Below are positions 1 to 60,009 of a stretch of DNA of 64,000 nucleotides, piece by piece. Both the position numbers and the translations under genes were made by a program. The notes beneath the pieces are model-generated. The model made no database searches and was not told the DNA's origin. It saw nothing but the letters and a program-made list of their open reading frames with translations. The stretch comes from Oceaniferula flava (GTDB taxonomy: Bacteria > Verrucomicrobiota > Verrucomicrobiia > Verrucomicrobiales > Akkermansiaceae): assembly GCF_016811075.1 (NCBI RefSeq), contig NZ_JAFBGL010000009.1, forward strand, positions 1-64,000, written 5' to 3'. Positions within the stretch are counted from its first letter, which is position 1. Every line of letters starts with the position of its first letter.

Positions 1-106
1 AGGGGGATTTGTTTGTTCCTCCGGAGCTTGCGCCCTCTAAAAAAAGTAACTGTTAGGCTATAGTGAAAATGAATTTTCAACTTTGCTTTTGACATGCCTT
101 CTCATG

Positions 107-124
107 GAAGGGTTTGCACCCTTC
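107..124. other. hairpin in the gap downstream of mqo
   Basis: A perfect 7-bp stem (GAAGGGT/ACCCTTC) with a 4-nt loop lies about 80 bases beyond the mqo stop. No U-run follows it on either strand, so it is at best a weak or factor-dependent end of the mqo transcript. The rest of bases 1-205 holds no convincing gene; the short open frame there has no family resemblance and no good start. Confidence 0.3.
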
Positions 125-205
125 GTTTGTTAGAGGTTTGGTCAGCCGTGAGCGCACGAGGGCTGCAAAGCCTTCGTTATGAAGATCCGCTATATGGGCA
201 GGGCA

Positions 206-1726
206 TTAGATGCCTAAGACGTCATTGGCCTGCTTGCGGATCTCGCGGTAGGCTTCGATGTCTTGTTTCATGTCCTTGCTGAAGCCGGGAACCATGGTGG
301 TGAGTTTGTCAGCCCATTGGTCGAGCTTGTCCGGGAAGCATTGTTTCAGGACGTCGAGCATGACGGCTACCGAACAGGAAGCTCCGGGGCTGGCTCCTAA
401 CAGGGCAGCGATCGAGCCGTCTTCTGCGGCCACGATTTCGGTGCCGAACTGCAGCACACCACCTTTTTTCTCGTCCTTCTTGATGATCTGGACCCGCTGA
501 CCGGCGGTCTCGAGGTGCCAGTGTTCGAGCTCGGCTTCGGGGAAGAACTCGCGCAGGGTATCGATCCGGTCCTCATCGGTGAGCATGCACTGCTCGATGA
601 GGTATTTGGTGAGGTCGAGGTTGTCTTTGCCGACAGCCAGCATCGGGATGAGGTTGGAAATTTTGACCGAGCTAGGCAGATCCAGCAGGGATCCGCTTTT
701 CAGGAACTTGGGTGAGAAACCGGCGAAGGGCCCAAACAGCAGAGTCTTCTTGCCATCGATAACGCGGGTATCGAGGTGGGGAACGGACATTGGCGGCGCG
801 CCGACCGCGGCTTTGCCGTAGACCTTGGCCTCATGTTTGGCGACGATTTCAGGGTTGTCGCAGACTAGGAACTGACCGCTGACCGGGAACCCGCCAAAGC
901 CTTTGCCCTCGGGGATGTCGGATTTCTGCAGCAGCGGAAGGCTCGCGCCGCCGGCGCCGACGAAGACGAAGGGCGCTTTGATCTTGCGATTGATGCCGCG
1001 CTCCATGTTGCGGACCTTGATCTGCCAGCCGCCGTCTTTGGTGCGCTTGAGGTCTTTGACGATGTGATTGGTGGCCAGCTTGATGCTGTCCTGCGCTTCC
1101 AGATAGCTCACCAGCTGCTCGGTCAGTGCGCCGAAGTTGATGTCGGTGCCGCTGTTCACGCGGGTGGCCGCGATCGCTTCATGGGCGGGGCGACCCTGGG
1201 TGAGGAGGGGAGTCCACTCGCTGACGGTCTCGGCATCATCGGTGAATTCCATGTCTTGGAAAAAGTGGTGCGCTTGCATCTTCTCGAAGCGCTTTCTCAG
1301 GTAGCCGACGTTTTTCTTGCCGCGGACAAAGCTCATGTGCGGCACGGCATTGATGAACTCCTTGGGATCGCCAAGGATGCCCTGCTCGGTGAGGTAGGCC
1401 CAGAATTGCTTGGACACTTGGAATGCCTCGTTGATCTCCAGCGCCTTGGTGATATCGACGTCACCGTTCTCGAGCTCCTTGGTGTAGTTCAGCTCACAGA
1501 GTGCGGCGTGGCCGGTGCCGGCGTTGTTCCATGGATTCGAGCTTTCGCGTGCGACGTCGGCCAGGGCTTCGACGATTTGGATGTTCAGGGTGGGGTCCAG
1601 CTGGTGCAGCAGCACACCCAAGGTGGCACTCATCACACCGCCGCCAATGAGAAGCACATCGGCCTCCTCCATGGTTTCCCGACGCGCATCAACATCATTA
1701 TTTTTCAAAGCCTGATCGTGAGACAT
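206..1726 (-). CDS. mqo: malate:quinone oxidoreductase
   Basis: Membrane-associated FAD enzyme that oxidises malate to oxaloacetate and passes electrons to the quinone pool, replacing or backing up soluble malate dehydrogenase in the TCA cycle. The N-terminus carries the FAD-binding fold (VLLIGGGVMSATLG), followed by the family stretch NPWNNAGTGHAALCELNYT; the C-terminus has the conserved GASPGASCSVAVMLDVL region. About 506 residues, the usual length for the family. The frame stays open to 1762, but the ATG at 1726 (MSHDQAL) gives a normal N-terminus; neither start has a clear Shine-Dalgarno sequence. It is the first of two genes read leftward. The family assignment is secure. Confidence 0.95.
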   Translation of the reverse strand: MSHDQALKNNDVDARRETMEEADVLLIGGGVMSATLGVLLHQLDPTLNIQIVEALADVARESSNPWNNAGTGHAALCELNYTKELENGDVDITKALEINEAFQVSKQFWAYLTEQGILGDPKEFINAVPHMSFVRGKKNVGYLRKRFEKMQAHHFFQDMEFTDDAETVSEWTPLLTQGRPAHEAIAATRVNSGTDINFGALTEQLVSYLEAQDSIKLATNHIVKDLKRTKDGGWQIKVRNMERGINRKIKAPFVFVGAGGASLPLLQKSDIPEGKGFGGFPVSGQFLVCDNPEIVAKHEAKVYGKAAVGAPPMSVPHLDTRVIDGKKTLLFGPFAGFSPKFLKSGSLLDLPSSVKISNLIPMLAVGKDNLDLTKYLIEQCMLTDEDRIDTLREFFPEAELEHWHLETAGQRVQIIKKDEKKGGVLQFGTEIVAAEDGSIAALLGASPGASCSVAVMLDVLKQCFPDKLDQWADKLTTMVPGFSKDMKQDIEAYREIRKQANDVLGI

Positions 1727-8846: not shown

Positions 8847-9395
8847 ATGGCTCATCGTGATTCCATACCTTGGCCTCATGCGCCCCCGCATTTCAATAAA
8901 GCATCAGGGGTGTATATGGTGACTGCCGGAACCTACCGCAAACAGCACTTTTTTAAGAGTCGCTTAAGATTGAAGTTTCTTCATGAACAGCTGATGACTT
9001 TATCAGATCGCTACGGGTGGCAGCTCCAGGCTTGGGCATTATTTTCCAATCACTATCACATGATTGCCACCTCACCGAAGGAGGGTGGAGGCAATCTATC
9101 GAATATGCTTAGCCATCTCCATACGGTGAGTGCTCGTTACGTGAATAGCTTGGATGAAACTCCGGCACGCAAGGTGTGGCATAACTACAGGGACACGCCA
9201 CTGACTTATGAGGCGTCCTACTTCGCGAGACTGCATTATGTAATAGAAAACCCAGTTAAACATGGATTGGTAGCTGTCGCGGATCAATACCCATGGTGCT
9301 CGGCTTCATGGTTTGCCCAGAAAGCCTCACCAGCTTTCCAAAATACGGTGCGGTCTTTTAAATACGATAGAATCAAGATCGAGGATGATTTCTGA
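8847..9395 (+). CDS. REP-associated tyrosine transposase (RAYT, Y1_Tnp family)
   Basis: A 182-residue relative of the IS200/IS605 single-strand transposases that is normally vertically inherited and linked to short palindromic genomic repeats. The HUH motif is present as NHYHMIA (around residue 69), and the conserved C-terminal block with the candidate catalytic tyrosine reads SYFARLHYVIENPVKHGLVA, followed by YPWCSASWF. Length is usual for the family. The gene lies between two copies of a ~300-base repeat, and its TGA stop overlaps the first two bases of the second copy, so gene and repeats form one unit. It is probably the enzyme that mobilised those repeats. No frameshift is seen, so it may be active. 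Confidence 0.88.
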   Translation: MAHRDSIPWPHAPPHFNKASGVYMVTAGTYRKQHFFKSRLRLKFLHEQLMTLSDRYGWQLQAWALFSNHYHMIATSPKEGGGNLSNMLSHLHTVSARYVNSLDETPARKVWHNYRDTPLTYEASYFARLHYVIENPVKHGLVAVADQYPWCSASWFAQKASPAFQNTVRSFKYDRIKIEDDF

Positions 9396-54554: not shown

Positions 54555-54719
54555 TGGCTTGGGATTAAGTTTCTGACATGGTCATAGAGAGGGATGATCC
54601 CTCCCGAAATTAGCAGTCGTTGCGAGCGAGTCGGGGTTACATTTAGTGAGGCTAAGTAATGAACAAATGTTTACTTTTCCTCTTTGATCCATCGCTCTCG
54701 CTGTGTAACTTTTGCTCCA

Positions 54720-55301
54720 ATGATCATGCGTTGGCAAAAACCTCTTACCATCGGCTTCCTGTCGATGGCGATCATGTCGGGTAGCTCCTTGGCTGCCCAG
54801 ACAGTGATTGACGGGGTTTTGACCGATGATTTGACGGACCTGTCCTATTTCACCGCTCCGCTCAATATGTCGCTGGAGCTCGTCGCTTCCGGCGTGGCCA
54901 TGACATCGGATGTGCCGAGCGTGGATCGATTGGTTGATTGGAAAATCGATGGCACCACGCGGTTGAATCTTTCCAGCTTCGGCTCCATTCAGGTGACTCC
55001 TGAGCAACAAATCGTCGATGGCGAATGGCAGCTCTGGGTGCTCTATTACACCGATACCGGCAGCTTCTTGAGTGAGGTCAATCTGCAGCCGTTCACCACC
55101 TCTACGGATACCTTCAGTGCCGATTTAAGCAGCACGGCTCCCGTGGATGCCGATGAGTTTTTTCTTCGCTTCCGAATCAAAGAGGCCGTGGGTGACGGCT
55201 TCACCTTTTCAGAGATTCAAGCCGCCCCAGTGCCCGAGCCCAGCACCGCGTTGTTAGGACTCGCCAGCCTCGCTCTGATCTTCCGCCGCTCACGCGCCTA
55301 A
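54720..55301 (+). CDS. PEP-CTERM sorted protein
   Basis: A 193-residue exported protein. The signal peptide has a hydrophobic core (TIGFLSMAIMSGSSLAAQ). The beta-rich middle has no family resemblance. The C-terminus shows the full exosortase signal: VPEPSTALLGLASLALIF followed by RRSRA, i.e. the PEP motif, a membrane helix and a basic tail. Such proteins are processed by exosortase and tied to exopolysaccharide. No exosortase gene is in the window. The ATG at 54720 (MIMRWQKP) is preferred over an upstream TTG; another ATG follows two codons later. Confidence 0.8.
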   Translation: MIMRWQKPLTIGFLSMAIMSGSSLAAQTVIDGVLTDDLTDLSYFTAPLNMSLELVASGVAMTSDVPSVDRLVDWKIDGTTRLNLSSFGSIQVTPEQQIVDGEWQLWVLYYTDTGSFLSEVNLQPFTTSTDTFSADLSSTAPVDADEFFLRFRIKEAVGDGFTFSEIQAAPVPEPSTALLGLASLALIFRRSRA

Positions 55302-55503
55302 ACCCCTCGTGCCGATCAACGGCGGAGTTTTACCTCATGGCCATCAAGTTCGGAGAAGTCCCGCAGAATTTCGCATGTTTAGCGTCTTTTGCGATCAAAG
55401 AGTGGCACGTAGAAGCACCGTAACATTCAGGACCTTTTGCCGTGTCCGTGCTTTCCTCCGCCTGAATTAGCTCGGCACGTTATTGCAACTCGGATGGAAG
55501 CAA

Positions 55504-56265
55504 CTACCAAGGCACTTCCGAGCCGTTGATATACCAGAATTTGCCCGATTGATCCGGCTTCAGCCCGGTGATCAGCTTGAGCATTTGGGGCACGCTGTCC
55601 TTCGGATCCAGCGGTGCACCGGCACCACCCATGTCGGTTTTGTTGTGTCCCGGGTTCAGGGAAATCACGATGAACCCATCACCGGCCAGCTGACCGTGCA
55701 GTTGTCGGGTCGCCATGTTCAGCGCCGCCTTGCTCATCGAGTAAGCGGCGTAGCTGCCACGCGTGCGGGCAATGCTGCCAAGACCCGATGAAATGTTGAC
55801 GATCTTCGGGTGCTTGGAGAGCTTCAGGTTCGGTTGGAGCGCTTTGGCGAGCAGTAGGGGACCAGTGGCATTGATATTGAAACAACGCTGCAGCGCCTCG
55901 CGATTGAGCCCCCGATTCATGTAGCCCGCGTTGTTGATCAACACGTCGATTTTTTGTCCCTTCAGCTCCTTGGCGAGATTGGCGATGTCGTCATCGCTGG
56001 TGATATCGAGTTGCAGCACCTGGGCGCCGGTGGCTTTCAGCTCCTTGGCCTCGGCCGGCTTGCGCGCAGTGCCAATCACCTTGTGCCCCGCCGCCGTCCA
56101 CTGCTTGGCATGCTCTAACCCCAGCCCCCGATTCGCCCCCGTGACCAACACCGTCAAAGGTTCATCTTCCGCCTGCGTGCAGTTGGGTAAACAAACGAGG
56201 AATGCGAGAGCGAGAAACAAACGACTCAAGGTCGTCAGCACAGTGGTCTTGGTGGTGTTCGGCAT
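55504..56265 (-). CDS. short-chain dehydrogenase/reductase with an exported-looking N-terminus
   Basis: A 253-residue SDR. The cofactor motif is TGANRGLG near residue 44, the structural NNAG is present, the catalytic Ser lies in IVNISSGLGS and the Tyr/Lys in YAAYSMSKAALN. All catalytic residues are intact. The unusual part is the N-terminus: a basic stretch and then LFLALAFLVCLPNCTQAEDE, a typical Sec signal or membrane anchor with a cleavage-like site, just before the SDR domain. SDRs need NAD(P)H and are normally cytoplasmic. The start at 56265 is an ATG; a GTG start 13 codons earlier does not remove the signal. It stands alone. Confidence 0.85.
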   Translation of the reverse strand: MPNTTKTTVLTTLSRLFLALAFLVCLPNCTQAEDEPLTVLVTGANRGLGLEHAKQWTAAGHKVIGTARKPAEAKELKATGAQVLQLDITSDDDIANLAKELKGQKIDVLINNAGYMNRGLNREALQRCFNINATGPLLLAKALQPNLKLSKHPKIVNISSGLGSIARTRGSYAAYSMSKAALNMATRQLHGQLAGDGFIVISLNPGHNKTDMGGAGAPLDPKDSVPQMLKLITGLKPDQSGKFWYINGSEVPW

Positions 56266-56416
56266 GGGATTGGAAATGGGTTGGGTATTAGATAGCACAT
56301 GCACTGCGTCGCGTCATCTTTTCCCTGAAAATGAGGGGCGTAGGTTTGTTAATAGAATGAGGCAATAAGGGGCAGGGGTATACGCAATGGGCGGAACTAC
56401 CGAGAAATGAAATGCA

Positions 56417-57949
56417 TTAGATATTGATGAGGTCGGGATTGAATCGGCCTTGTTGGATGAGGAATCCTAAGGGAAAGCTGCCGCGGCTTTTCTGATCACC
56501 TTTTTTCTCCCAAGAATCGGCAAGGTTTTTAAGTTCTTCTGCTGTGACGAGTGTGATGATCGTCTGTTTTTCAACGAAGAAACTCATCGCTGTGACAGCA
56601 CTTTCGGGAGTAAAGGACGGTCCGATAACAAGGAAGGCGCTAACGCGTTTTTCGGATGCGGAGATGTAACGGGCGAACTGTTTGATGTGGTCGGGAAGAT
56701 GCACGGGCAATTCCTTGGATTTGTTATCCCAGAGAATCAGTCCGTCGCCATGAGACAACGCACCATCGGCGTGTTCCGTTCCGACTTGTTTGAGTGGACG
56801 GTGGCCTAATTTAAATTCGAACAAATACTTGGTGGCATCTTCGAATTTTCGCTCAATCTCGATATCTTTTTCTATGAGCTGTTGGGCGCGAAGGTAAGCA
56901 TGGTCGCGAGCCGCAAACTTGAGGTATTCTGCAAACCAGTAGGTGCGTGCGTCTTCGACCTCATCGTCACGTTGCTTGAGGTGATCGTAAAAGCCGATGA
57001 TCCGAGCCATGACTTCGGCTTTTGTGCCAGATACCTGCAGATTTAAATCGCGACACCAGTCGACAATCGCATCATGTGCGAGACCATCCCTTGGCGTTGT
57101 TCCTCCTAGTAAAATCGAGGGTTTTACTCGATGGATGATAAGATCCCGAAGCTCTTCCAGAGTTTCGGATCCTTTAGGGTGACAATCAACTTTTTTTAAG
57201 GTCTCGATGTAGTAGCTCTTCTTTCTCACTGCCTTGTATTTCAGGAGTTCTTGATAACCATGTTGGCGTATTTCAATACCGAGAATTTGTCGTAAACATG
57301 CTGCGATTTCTTCCGGTATAATATCGTAATCCTGACCGTCATCATCACGCACCATCGTGATAAATCCTGCCGTTTGAAGGTGTCTACGTGCGGAATCGAC
57401 GTGGCTGCGGAGGTGGACTTCATTACCGGGTTGTGGAAACTTTCCTAAGCTTGCTTCAATGACCCGATACTCGAATTCAGTAATATTGAGCCGTCTCCGC
57501 AGGTTTGAAATCAGGTTTTGCTCGTCGGGTGTGATGTCATTATCTTGATCCCAGGCCGTCTCTAAAACAAAGCGGAAGAGATCGAGGTTTTTGGCACTCG
57601 TGCCATTAGTGGGTTGTGGATTCTCATTGGCAGCATCGATGACAAGCCTTTCCCACTCAATGACTTCTTTATCCGTCTCTGCCACGGCTAACATGAAGTC
57701 GTCTTTGTTGAGCAGCACGTGGGTCAGCATAATCCATGCGATGAGGCGAATGTCTTGTTCCTTATGGAGACGGCATTCACGCCAAGCTTGTTCTACGTTC
57801 TCCGGATAAAAGTATTGAGGGGCCGTTTTCTCCAAAGCGGGAATGATTTCATCCTCCTGAAGGTTTCGATGATCGACGACATAGGCACTGCAAAAGCGCT
57901 TTAAATCGTTCTTCGTGGAAATGCTGCGGATAACTTTGTTGAATTTCAT
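56417..57949 (-). CDS. SAP domain and PD-(D/E)XK nuclease-like protein (candidate defence gene)
   Basis: A 510-residue soluble protein. Residues ~115-170 (DITPDEQNLISNLRRRL) resemble TerB-like helical sensor domains. Residues ~300-335 match a SAP DNA-binding motif (AIVDWCRDLNLQVSGTKAEV). The segment at ~380-450 has the nuclease pattern: YLFEFKLGHR, then HGDGLILWDNKSKE, where an Asp before a beta-strand and the final D-N-K fit PD-(D/E)XK restriction-type folds, followed by AFLVIGPSF. The gene is richer in A+T than its neighbours and stands alone, unlike a restriction-modification pair. It may be a single-gene defence nuclease. Domain calls are by pattern and need profile support. Confidence 0.6.
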   Translation of the reverse strand: MKFNKVIRSISTKNDLKRFCSAYVVDHRNLQEDEIIPALEKTAPQYFYPENVEQAWRECRLHKEQDIRLIAWIMLTHVLLNKDDFMLAVAETDKEVIEWERLVIDAANENPQPTNGTSAKNLDLFRFVLETAWDQDNDITPDEQNLISNLRRRLNITEFEYRVIEASLGKFPQPGNEVHLRSHVDSARRHLQTAGFITMVRDDDGQDYDIIPEEIAACLRQILGIEIRQHGYQELLKYKAVRKKSYYIETLKKVDCHPKGSETLEELRDLIIHRVKPSILLGGTTPRDGLAHDAIVDWCRDLNLQVSGTKAEVMARIIGFYDHLKQRDDEVEDARTYWFAEYLKFAARDHAYLRAQQLIEKDIEIERKFEDATKYLFEFKLGHRPLKQVGTEHADGALSHGDGLILWDNKSKELPVHLPDHIKQFARYISASEKRVSAFLVIGPSFTPESAVTAMSFFVEKQTIITLVTAEELKNLADSWEKKGDQKSRGSFPLGFLIQQGRFNPDLINI

Positions 57950-58236
57950 GGAGGAGATAGATTATTGTTAGAATAATCGTTCGTGCAGCCTCGTCACTCT
58001 AAAAATTAATGAATCTCTGTTAGTTCTGCTGGGGGAGGGGGCGATTAGGAGGAGTTCTCGTGTTTTTCTTAAACACATGAGCCAAGAATTTTGAAAGGGG
58101 CGTATTTCTTGGTGACCGAGCACCAGGGCGGAGGCTCGGTTTTGAAATGTCAGCTTTTATTCACAATTCGTCTTGCATGTCGGCCGACCTGAGGCATTCT
58201 TTTCTGTGAACACGAAGTAAGTTGATCAACAAGCTA
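57950..58236 (+). promoter_or_regulatory. cysJ leader region with a stem and short U-run
   Basis: A 287-base A+T-rich divergent region between the nuclease-like gene and cysJ. Near 58116-58141 ACCGAGC pairs with GCTCGGT across a 12-base loop and four T residues follow, giving a terminator-like structure about 90 bases before cysJ. Its placement allows transcription attenuation of the sulfite reductase operon. I looked for a SAM-type riboswitch pattern and did not find one. Confidence 0.4.
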
Positions 58237-60009
58237 ATGATTAAGTTTCCAGCCCACTCTCCATTTTCTCCCGAACAGCAGCAGCAACTCTCGGGAATGT
58301 TGTCGTCCTTGAACCCGCCACAGGTCGCGTGGCTGGGTGGTTTTCTGTCCGGTGTGCAATCGGATGCCGCAGCGACCGCTCAACCGGTCGCAGCGAAAAA
58401 GCTGACGGTGCTTTACGGCACGGAATCCGGGAACTCGGAGGAGTTGGCGGAGCAGGTTTTCAAGACGGCGAAGAAAAAAGGCTTCAAGGCCCAGATCGTC
58501 AATATGTCCGAGACCACCGCGTCCGCGCTGAAAGAGGCCGGCAGCTTGCTGGTGGTGGTCAGCACCTGGGGCGACGGCGATCCGCCGGAGGCTGCGGAAG
58601 AATTTTACAAGGACCTGATGTCCGCCGATGTCTCGCTGGACGGGGTGGAATTCTCAGTCTGTGCGCTGGGCGACACCGGCTACGATCAATTTTGCGAAAC
58701 CGGCAAACAAATCGACGCCCGACTGGAAAAGCTCGGTGCCAAGCGCGTGGCGGATCGGGTCGACTGTGATGTCGACTACGAAGAATCCTTCCAGCAGTGG
58801 AGTGATTCCGTCTGGAAAGTGCTCGGTGATGCCGCAGCGGCCGCTGCACCGGCGGTGGCTGATTTCGCTGCCCCAGTGGCCCAAGTTTACGACAAAAAGA
58901 ACCCGTTCCCAGCGGAAGTCATCGATAACCAGCTGCTCAGCGGCGACCACTCGGCGAAGGAAACCATCCACCTGGAATTCTCGCTCGAGGGATCCGGTTT
59001 CGATTATGAGCCTGGCGATGTGCTCGCGGTGATTCCGCGCAATGCCAAGGACGTGGTGGATGCCGTGCTCAAGGCCAGTGGACTGGATGCTGATGCCACC
59101 GTGGATGTCAAAGGTGTGGGCAACAAGAAGCTTTCCGCCGCCCTCACCGAGGATCTCGATATCACCGGGCTGTCGCGCAAAATCGTCAGTGCCTGGCAGC
59201 AGATTTCCGGCTCGGAGGAGCTGGCCAAACTGCTCGACGATGCCGCCAAGGGGGAGTTCAAGGACTGGAGCTACGGTCGGGAGATCATCGATCTGCTGGA
59301 AGAGCACCCGGCAAAATCGGTCACCGCACAGCAGTTTGTAGACATCTTGCGCAAGCTGCCGCCGCGCCTGTATTCCATCGCTTCCAGCCCCAAGGCCCAC
59401 CCGGGCGAAGTGCATCTCACCGTGGCCGCCGTGCGCTACGAGAGTCATGGTAAGTCCCGCAAGGGCGTGGCCTCCACCTACCTGGCAGACGACGCCAAGA
59501 AGGGGACCCCGGTTTCTGTCTACGTGCACAAGAACAAGAACTTCCGCCTGCCGGAAAATGGCGACACCCCGATCATCATGGTCGGCCCCGGCACCGGCAT
59601 CGCGCCCTTCCGCGCCTTCGTCGAAGAGCGCGCGGAAACGCAAGCCAAGGGGGATAGCTGGTTGTTCTTTGGCGATCAGAAATACAACGAGGACTTCCTC
59701 TATCAGCTGGAACTGCAAGACCACCTCAAGAACGGCAGCCTCTCGCGTCTCGATGTCGCCTTCTCGCGGGATCAGCCGGAGAAAGTCTACGTGCAGCACA
59801 AGATGTTGGAGAATGCCAAGGAGCTTTGGCAGTGGCTGGAAAAGGGTGCGCATTTCTACGTCTGTGGCGATGCCTCCCGCATGGCCAAGGATGTCCACGA
59901 TGCGCTGCTGGAAATCATCGCCACGGAAGGTGGCAAGTCGCCCGAAGAAGCCGACGCCTACCTGGCCGCACTGAAGAAGGACAAGCGCTACCAGCGCGAT
60001 GTGTATTAA
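58237..60009 (+). CDS. cysJ: sulfite reductase flavoprotein subunit
   Basis: Passes electrons from NADPH through FAD and FMN to the haemoprotein. In order: a ~50-residue leader helix region, a flavodoxin FMN domain (~55-200, LYGTESGNSEELAE), an FAD domain (~225-430, RLYSIASSP) and an NADPH domain with GPGTGIAPFRAF. The C-terminal sequence YQRDVY is the standard CysJ end. About 590 residues, normal. The ATG at 58237 is used; a TTG lies five codons upstream. cysI starts 69 bases after the stop, so the two subunits are co-transcribed. Confidence 0.95.
   Translation: MIKFPAHSPFSPEQQQQLSGMLSSLNPPQVAWLGGFLSGVQSDAAATAQPVAAKKLTVLYGTESGNSEELAEQVFKTAKKKGFKAQIVNMSETTASALKEAGSLLVVVSTWGDGDPPEAAEEFYKDLMSADVSLDGVEFSVCALGDTGYDQFCETGKQIDARLEKLGAKRVADRVDCDVDYEESFQQWSDSVWKVLGDAAAAAAPAVADFAAPVAQVYDKKNPFPAEVIDNQLLSGDHSAKETIHLEFSLEGSGFDYEPGDVLAVIPRNAKDVVDAVLKASGLDADATVDVKGVGNKKLSAALTEDLDITGLSRKIVSAWQQISGSEELAKLLDDAAKGEFKDWSYGREIIDLLEEHPAKSVTAQQFVDILRKLPPRLYSIASSPKAHPGEVHLTVAAVRYESHGKSRKGVASTYLADDAKKGTPVSVYVHKNKNFRLPENGDTPIIMVGPGTGIAPFRAFVEERAETQAKGDSWLFFGDQKYNEDFLYQLELQDHLKNGSLSRLDVAFSRDQPEKVYVQHKMLENAKELWQWLEKGAHFYVCGDASRMAKDVHDALLEIIATEGGKSPEEADAYLAALKKDKRYQRDVY

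Follow-up and report, generated by a model that had tools for sequence, protein, structure and literature searches.

Type IIS restriction enzymes are usually accompanied by one or two methyltransferases, and in FokI the cleavage domain is restrained by the DNA-binding part of the protein and double-strand cutting requires dimerisation (PMC4081073). The protein described here, encoded in a 64-kb window (the whole stretch of DNA that was analysed), shares with FokI (1FOK, 2FOK) a predicted C-terminal FokI-type PD-(D/E)XK cleavage domain, an N-terminal winged-helix DNA-binding part and a similar size. Unlike FokI, it carries a SAP domain, its winged helix contains a helical insert, its catalytic segment reads DG...WDNK, it lacks a methyltransferase partner and its recognition region is not diversified. 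The likeness to Nt.BspD6I/R.BspD6I lies in a nuclease domain that can be aligned over 177 residues; however, the nuclease domain alone is aligned, and the window gene has neither an adjoining small-subunit gene nor a methyltransferase.

Mrr-type and other Type IV enzymes are likewise solitary, without a methyltransferase, and combine a DNA-binding domain with a PD-(D/E)XK blade, so that a Type IV mode of action would fit the window nuclease if it were to read a modified base; its cleavage domain, however, matches FokI and not Mrr_cat. A further comparison is by analogy only: RexAB and gp30-gp31 of Sbash, in which a temperate virus supplies a cytosolic protein (DNA-sensing in the case of RexA) and an ion channel, are a precedent for a DNA-linked sensor working with a channel (PMC6426596). 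In the family described below the partners would be a nuclease and a six-helix K+ channel, and the likeness is one of description, no sequence relation having been seen.

The gene and its features

The gene is an intact ORF with an ATG start and a product of 510 aa. It and its parts, together with the insertion that holds it, are as follows:

56417..57949, minus strand: solitary nuclease gene (ORF call; full-length relatives 39-51% identical in other bacterial genomes)
57686..57808, minus strand: first part of a predicted split winged helix, residues ~48-88 (AlphaFold models; VIA alignments, MarR/ArsR/TubR-like)
57440..57685, minus strand: helical insertion, residues ~89-170, weakly TerB-like (predicted helices; PF05099 in 2 of 42 relatives)
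57275..57439, minus strand: second part of the predicted winged helix, residues ~171-225 (AlphaFold models, VIA)
56972..57064, minus strand: SAP DNA-binding domain, residues 296-326 (Pfam PF18953, PF02037)
56498..56875, minus strand: predicted FokI-type PD-(D/E)XK nuclease domain, residues ~359-484 (AlphaFold core, Foldseek, VIA)
56840..56842, minus strand: conserved Glu 370 (71 of 71 sequences with the column filled)
56765..56767, minus strand: predicted catalytic Asp 395, the Asp of PD (73 of 73 sequences)
56720..56728, minus strand: predicted catalytic D408-N409-K410, D-x-K (73 of 73 sequences)
about 54555..58150 (58221 at widest), unstranded: ~3.6-kb insertion between cobA-hemD and cysJ, holding the nuclease gene (comparison with four same-genus genomes)

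No model in Pfam, NCBIfam, PADLOC or PHROGs covers the whole protein or gives its family a name, and no match to a housekeeping family, which the sequence-only reading had named as a finding that would speak against it, was found. The defence models of PADLOC-DB 2.0.0 left the window protein unmatched at E values up to 10 and gave only scattered weak matches to its relatives. PDB sequence searches with the protein returned no real match, and a literature search on nucleases combining FokI with SAP, or TerB with SAP, found nothing relevant.

A predicted FokI-type nuclease domain

The AlphaFold model of the window protein, built on a 42-sequence alignment, has a mean pLDDT of 90.9 and contains a restriction core formed by a helix (363-380) and the strands 396-400, 403-409, 436-443 and 464-469. 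Foldseek against the PDB ranked FokI first (E 1.2e-6 to 3e-5) and Nt.BspD6I second, and against viral models it gave weak restriction-endonuclease matches only. In VIA, the model aligned with FokI at Z 14.9 over 228 residues (55..505 of the model on 152..579 of FokI) with an overall rmsd of 13 A, which is high because the domains are differently placed, and with Nt.BspD6I at Z 13.3 over 177 residues (within 331-510) with an rmsd of 3.6 A. The Pfam model FokI_cleav_dom (PF09254) matched 9 of the 42 relatives (best E 7.5e-5) and not the window protein itself. The C-terminus is thus, as modelled, a PD-(D/E)XK nuclease of the FokI/Nt.BspD6I type, and the restriction core proposed from the letters of the DNA is borne out by AlphaFold, Foldseek, VIA and the Pfam matches of the relatives.

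The same reading had noticed an Asp-x-Asn-Lys pattern. The catalytic motif is there, but it reads W407-D408-N409-K410 (D-x-K), with D395 as the partner Asp and E370 as the Glu. In all sequences that have the column concerned, up to 73, E370, D395, D408, N409 and K410 are unchanged. WDNK was part of the search pattern for 44 of the loci (L013-L056), so its invariance in the rows picked by that pattern follows in part from the selection; the copies found without it, which comprise those of haloarchaea and most of those of Verrucomicrobiota, keep WDNK too.

The DNA-binding part

The SAP-type stretch claimed at the outset was recovered by Pfam: PF18953 matches residues 296-326 of the window protein with E 3.6e-6 and 26.9 bits, over the cut-off of 26.3, PF02037 matches with E 1.7e-4, and PF02037 was detected in 28 of the 42 relatives. 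The N-terminal 288 residues, folded separately, gave an AlphaFold pLDDT of 90.9, and this domain alone had no significant match in Foldseek. VIA aligned the N-terminal winged helix to MarR/ArsR/TubR-like folds (7wze: Z 8.3, 75 residues, 1.5 A), with residues ~89-170 interrupting the winged-helix segments; the Z of about 8 being modest, the assignment draws on the topology in addition to the score. In the N-terminal model the insert is made up of the helices 89-109, 119-134, 141-153 and 158-167, and it is followed by a putative recognition helix (181-193) and wing strands (198-201 and 207-210).

This region had been read as TerB-like. A helical insert is indeed predicted, and the TerB family PF05099 matches 2 of the 42 relatives, weakly (best E 0.0017), but the window protein itself is unmatched; the TerB reading is weakly supported, and a split winged helix is the better description of the N-terminus in the models.

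The conservation of the DNA-binding region is close to that of the blade: 45-55% against 63% for the nuclease in Verrucomicrobiota, and 65-76% against 72% in haloarchaea. A Type IIS set of differing specificity is expected to diverge in its recognition part. With conservation so close to that of the blade, the DNA-binding region probably has a fixed target rather than one of many diversified sequences.

Relatives and their distribution

Protein searches of two sets of nearly 400 genomes each, from the phylum and the class of the host, found full-length relatives with 44-50% identity in six other genomes, besides partial and more distant copies. Homologues are also carried by a Natrinema plasmid and by the halovirus Humcor1, an induced provirus of siphovirus type from Halorubrum coriense (PMC7911831), in which the structural genes are on the other strand from the nuclease homologue. 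A search for related loci with the single protein found nothing, and an alignment was required as the query; it gave 44 loci in Verrucomicrobiota, Lentisphaerota, Bacillota, Mycoplasmatota, Chloroflexota, Armatimonadota, Gemmatimonadota, Aminicenantes and haloarchaea, among which individual taxon assignments may be wrong since many are metagenome bins. Since these 44 loci were selected by a WDNK-containing pattern, the family may extend wider than seen. In haloarchaea, 23 of 341 genomes matched, about 18 of them at full length. Presence is patchy, at about 2% of the sampled Verrucomicrobiota and 7% of the sampled haloarchaea, and the Bacillota part of the nuclease tree tracks the phylum well. 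These proteins form a real, unnamed family of FokI-type nucleases, broadly spread over about eight phyla and both prokaryotic domains.

Insertion site and horizontal acquisition

In four genomes of the same genus, about 80-225 nt lie between cobA-hemD and the cysJ-cysI that comes after it. In the window, ~3.6 kb separates cobA-hemD from cysJ and holds the genes for a PEP-CTERM protein, a short-chain dehydrogenase and the nuclease; the same-genus comparison shows the cysJ leader to be conserved from ~58150 onward. The start of cysJ is probably the ATG near 58237, where the relatives share a MIKFP start and the leader, and not the mechanically called TTG at 58222.

The nuclease gene has the lowest GC among the 39 long ORFs of the window (0.472; mean 0.567) and the second lowest GC3 (0.503; mean 0.671), as its description as an A+T-rich gene of differing composition had implied. 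Next in A+T content among the long ORFs of the window comes an IS200-like (Y1) transposase (8847-9395). In other Verrucomicrobiota hosts, too, the GC of the gene is well under that of its flanks (e.g., 0.52 against ~0.65 and 0.45 against ~0.57). The sampled same-genus genomes have no match to the gene, and the sole other copy in the same family of organisms (L010) stands on a distant branch of the nuclease tree. The low GC, the insertion into an otherwise intact gene row, the patchy presence and the distant copy show that the nuclease gene was horizontally acquired, as the sequence-only reading had proposed.

This bears on a second explanation, in which the protein would be a chromosomal repair or recombination nuclease guided by the SAP domain and the winged helix to damaged or branched DNA, which it would trim or cut. 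Repair proteins often contain SAP and winged-helix domains, the Bacillota copies cluster by phylum, and one copy (L037) lies 131 nt after sbcD-sbcC-like genes, as read by eye. Against this, few genomes carry the nuclease and the sampled same-genus genomes lack it, the GC of the gene is clearly under that of the flanks in the listed Verrucomicrobiota hosts, one copy is borne by a virus, and no repair neighbour is constant. We consider a repair function unlikely.

Gene neighbourhoods

The window copy is a solitary gene, as first described, and no constant partner gene or operon partner was found across the nuclease loci. Ordinary metabolic genes dominate around the homologues. The expected clustering with phage-defence genes was seen in part: neighbour tallies give known defence or restriction genes in about five of ~69 loci only, and most loci have metabolic neighbours. 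In L017/L078 there are Gabija-like ATPase/helicase genes and AbiEi (by Pfam); one among 134 neighbours matched GajA (E 3.6e-235), most likely the Gabija-like gene of this locus. Pfam also places Mrr beside the nuclease in L117, and an adjoining D12 adenine methyltransferase plus Mrr in L122, and an N-6 DNA methylase and a helicase lie ~5 kb from the Natrinema plasmid copy (the methylase is listed for L008/L114).

Some neighbours are observations in their own right. In an Aminicenantes bacterium (L050:6328-11505) a relative of the nuclease lies between AbiE-like genes (by eye) and a GmrSD-type gene (Pfam), which is followed, two genes from the nuclease, by a two-helix K+ channel with a regulatory domain, differing from the six-helix type described below. 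A YdjM-type membrane hydrolase gene recurs beside haloarchaeal copies (L117, L119, L125 and L007; by Pfam in L117, by annotation in Humcor1 and by eye in the others). In five Clostridia (L033, L034, L042, L052, L054) a small four-helix 23S_rRNA_IVP-type gene adjoins the nuclease; as a constant partner it was rejected, being probably lineage-bound.

The absence of a methyltransferase partner, also claimed beforehand, holds: no methyltransferase motif was found in the ORFs of at least 200 aa of the window, and among the ~69 loci a methyltransferase stands directly beside the nuclease in one (L122), with otherwise a few distant ones within 10 kb. The protein could instead be an orphan Type IIS enzyme that recognises one ordinary short site and is tolerated because a methyltransferase elsewhere in the genome protects its sites. 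The whole-protein likeness to FokI and Nt.BspD6I and the adjoining D12 adenine methyltransferase in L122 would agree with this; yet methyltransferases are usual with Type IIS enzymes (PMC4081073) and adjoin the nuclease directly at that one locus only, and the recognition region is not diversified, which makes such an orphan quite unlikely.

Association with a potassium channel

In seven of the ~69 nuclease loci (L007, L015, L016, L055, L079, L121 and L126, four of them with Pfam support) a voltage-gated-type K+ channel of six helices (PF00520, TVGYGD filter) lies within two genes of the nuclease. In Humcor1 the channel is convergent with the nuclease, with one gene between; in Opitutales (L015) it is 7 nt downstream, in Pelagicoccus (L016) 20 nt upstream and in L079 upstream, and in Saliphagus (L055) it is partial, at a contig end. 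About 0.09 chance cases would be expected in 69 loci, an expectation that takes about one full-length channel per genome and is rough because it assumes independence and uniform gene order. The adjacent channels are not one clade, and the well-supported branches of the channel tree force at least five changes between adjacent and non-adjacent labels. This suggests, at the level of gene order and trees, a repeated pairing of nuclease and channel, which may be functional or may reflect a niche for accessory genes that both share. Co-transfer of the two as one unit was rejected, the adjacent channels being scattered over the channel tree. Non-adjacent channels showed no conserved nuclease neighbours, and no channel lies near the window copy.

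The Opitutales channel (L015:11544-12341) clusters with channels of haloarchaea (support 98/99), which may point to an inter-domain transfer. Elsewhere, at L165:3917-8130 in the haloarchaeal genome G910, apparent cas2 and cas4 genes (by eye) adjoin a near-copy of the K+ channel that is found next to the nuclease, a context which hints that K+ channels of this type are more widely associated with defence.

Where the channel is present, the two proteins might form an abortive system, with the nuclease as the sensor of invader DNA and the channel as the means of depolarising the membrane; the window copy would then be the form without a channel. The seven loci against about 0.09 expected, the label changes on the channel tree and the precedent of RexAB and Sbash 30/31 (PMC6426596) speak for it, but 62 of the 69 loci, including the window, have no channel, orientation and spacing vary, and the channels are also found alone. 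We regard such a two-part system as very unlikely.

Proposed role

The reading that we favour, with moderate confidence, is that of a stand-alone FokI-like DNA endonuclease, most likely restricting incoming phage, plasmid or provirus DNA. The split winged helix and the SAP domain would bind DNA, and the C-terminal FokI-type domain, with its intact catalytic set, would cut. Given the same layout as in FokI, the same control of cleavage may apply: the cleavage domain would become active only once the DNA-binding part has bound its target and two copies have come together, leading to a double-strand break. The target would probably be a fixed DNA feature, for instance a modification, a DNA end or a junction, or a conserved motif that is missing or masked in the host; in the simplest account, the host either has no such fixed target or masks it, which would make a methyltransferase unnecessary.

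Patchiness, mobility and the viral copy make defence against incoming DNA the most likely role, and an immune function is plausible. The gene would then be a horizontally spread single-gene defence, of which an archaeal virus carries a copy presumably against competitors. Against a defence role stand the metabolic neighbours of most loci and the absence of a PADLOC match, and the Bacillota tree tracking its phylum would also fit a long-kept cellular function. It would be quite a long shot that this nuclease is the founding member of an as yet undescribed antiviral family of bacteria, archaea and an archaeal virus, acting alone or, in some lineages, with a repeatedly recruited K+ channel, in which the nuclease would recognise and cut invader DNA and the channel would collapse the membrane potential if cutting fails.

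A FokI-type blade joined to a fixed recognition module without a methyltransferase would represent a new family of modification- or structure-dependent restriction enzymes, or a new immune sensor, and such a blade with a new targeting module would be of interest for genome engineering. With a K+ channel recurring as a neighbour, a link of DNA cleavage to membrane depolarisation can be tested, and a nuclease-channel defence pair, if real, would be an undescribed one.
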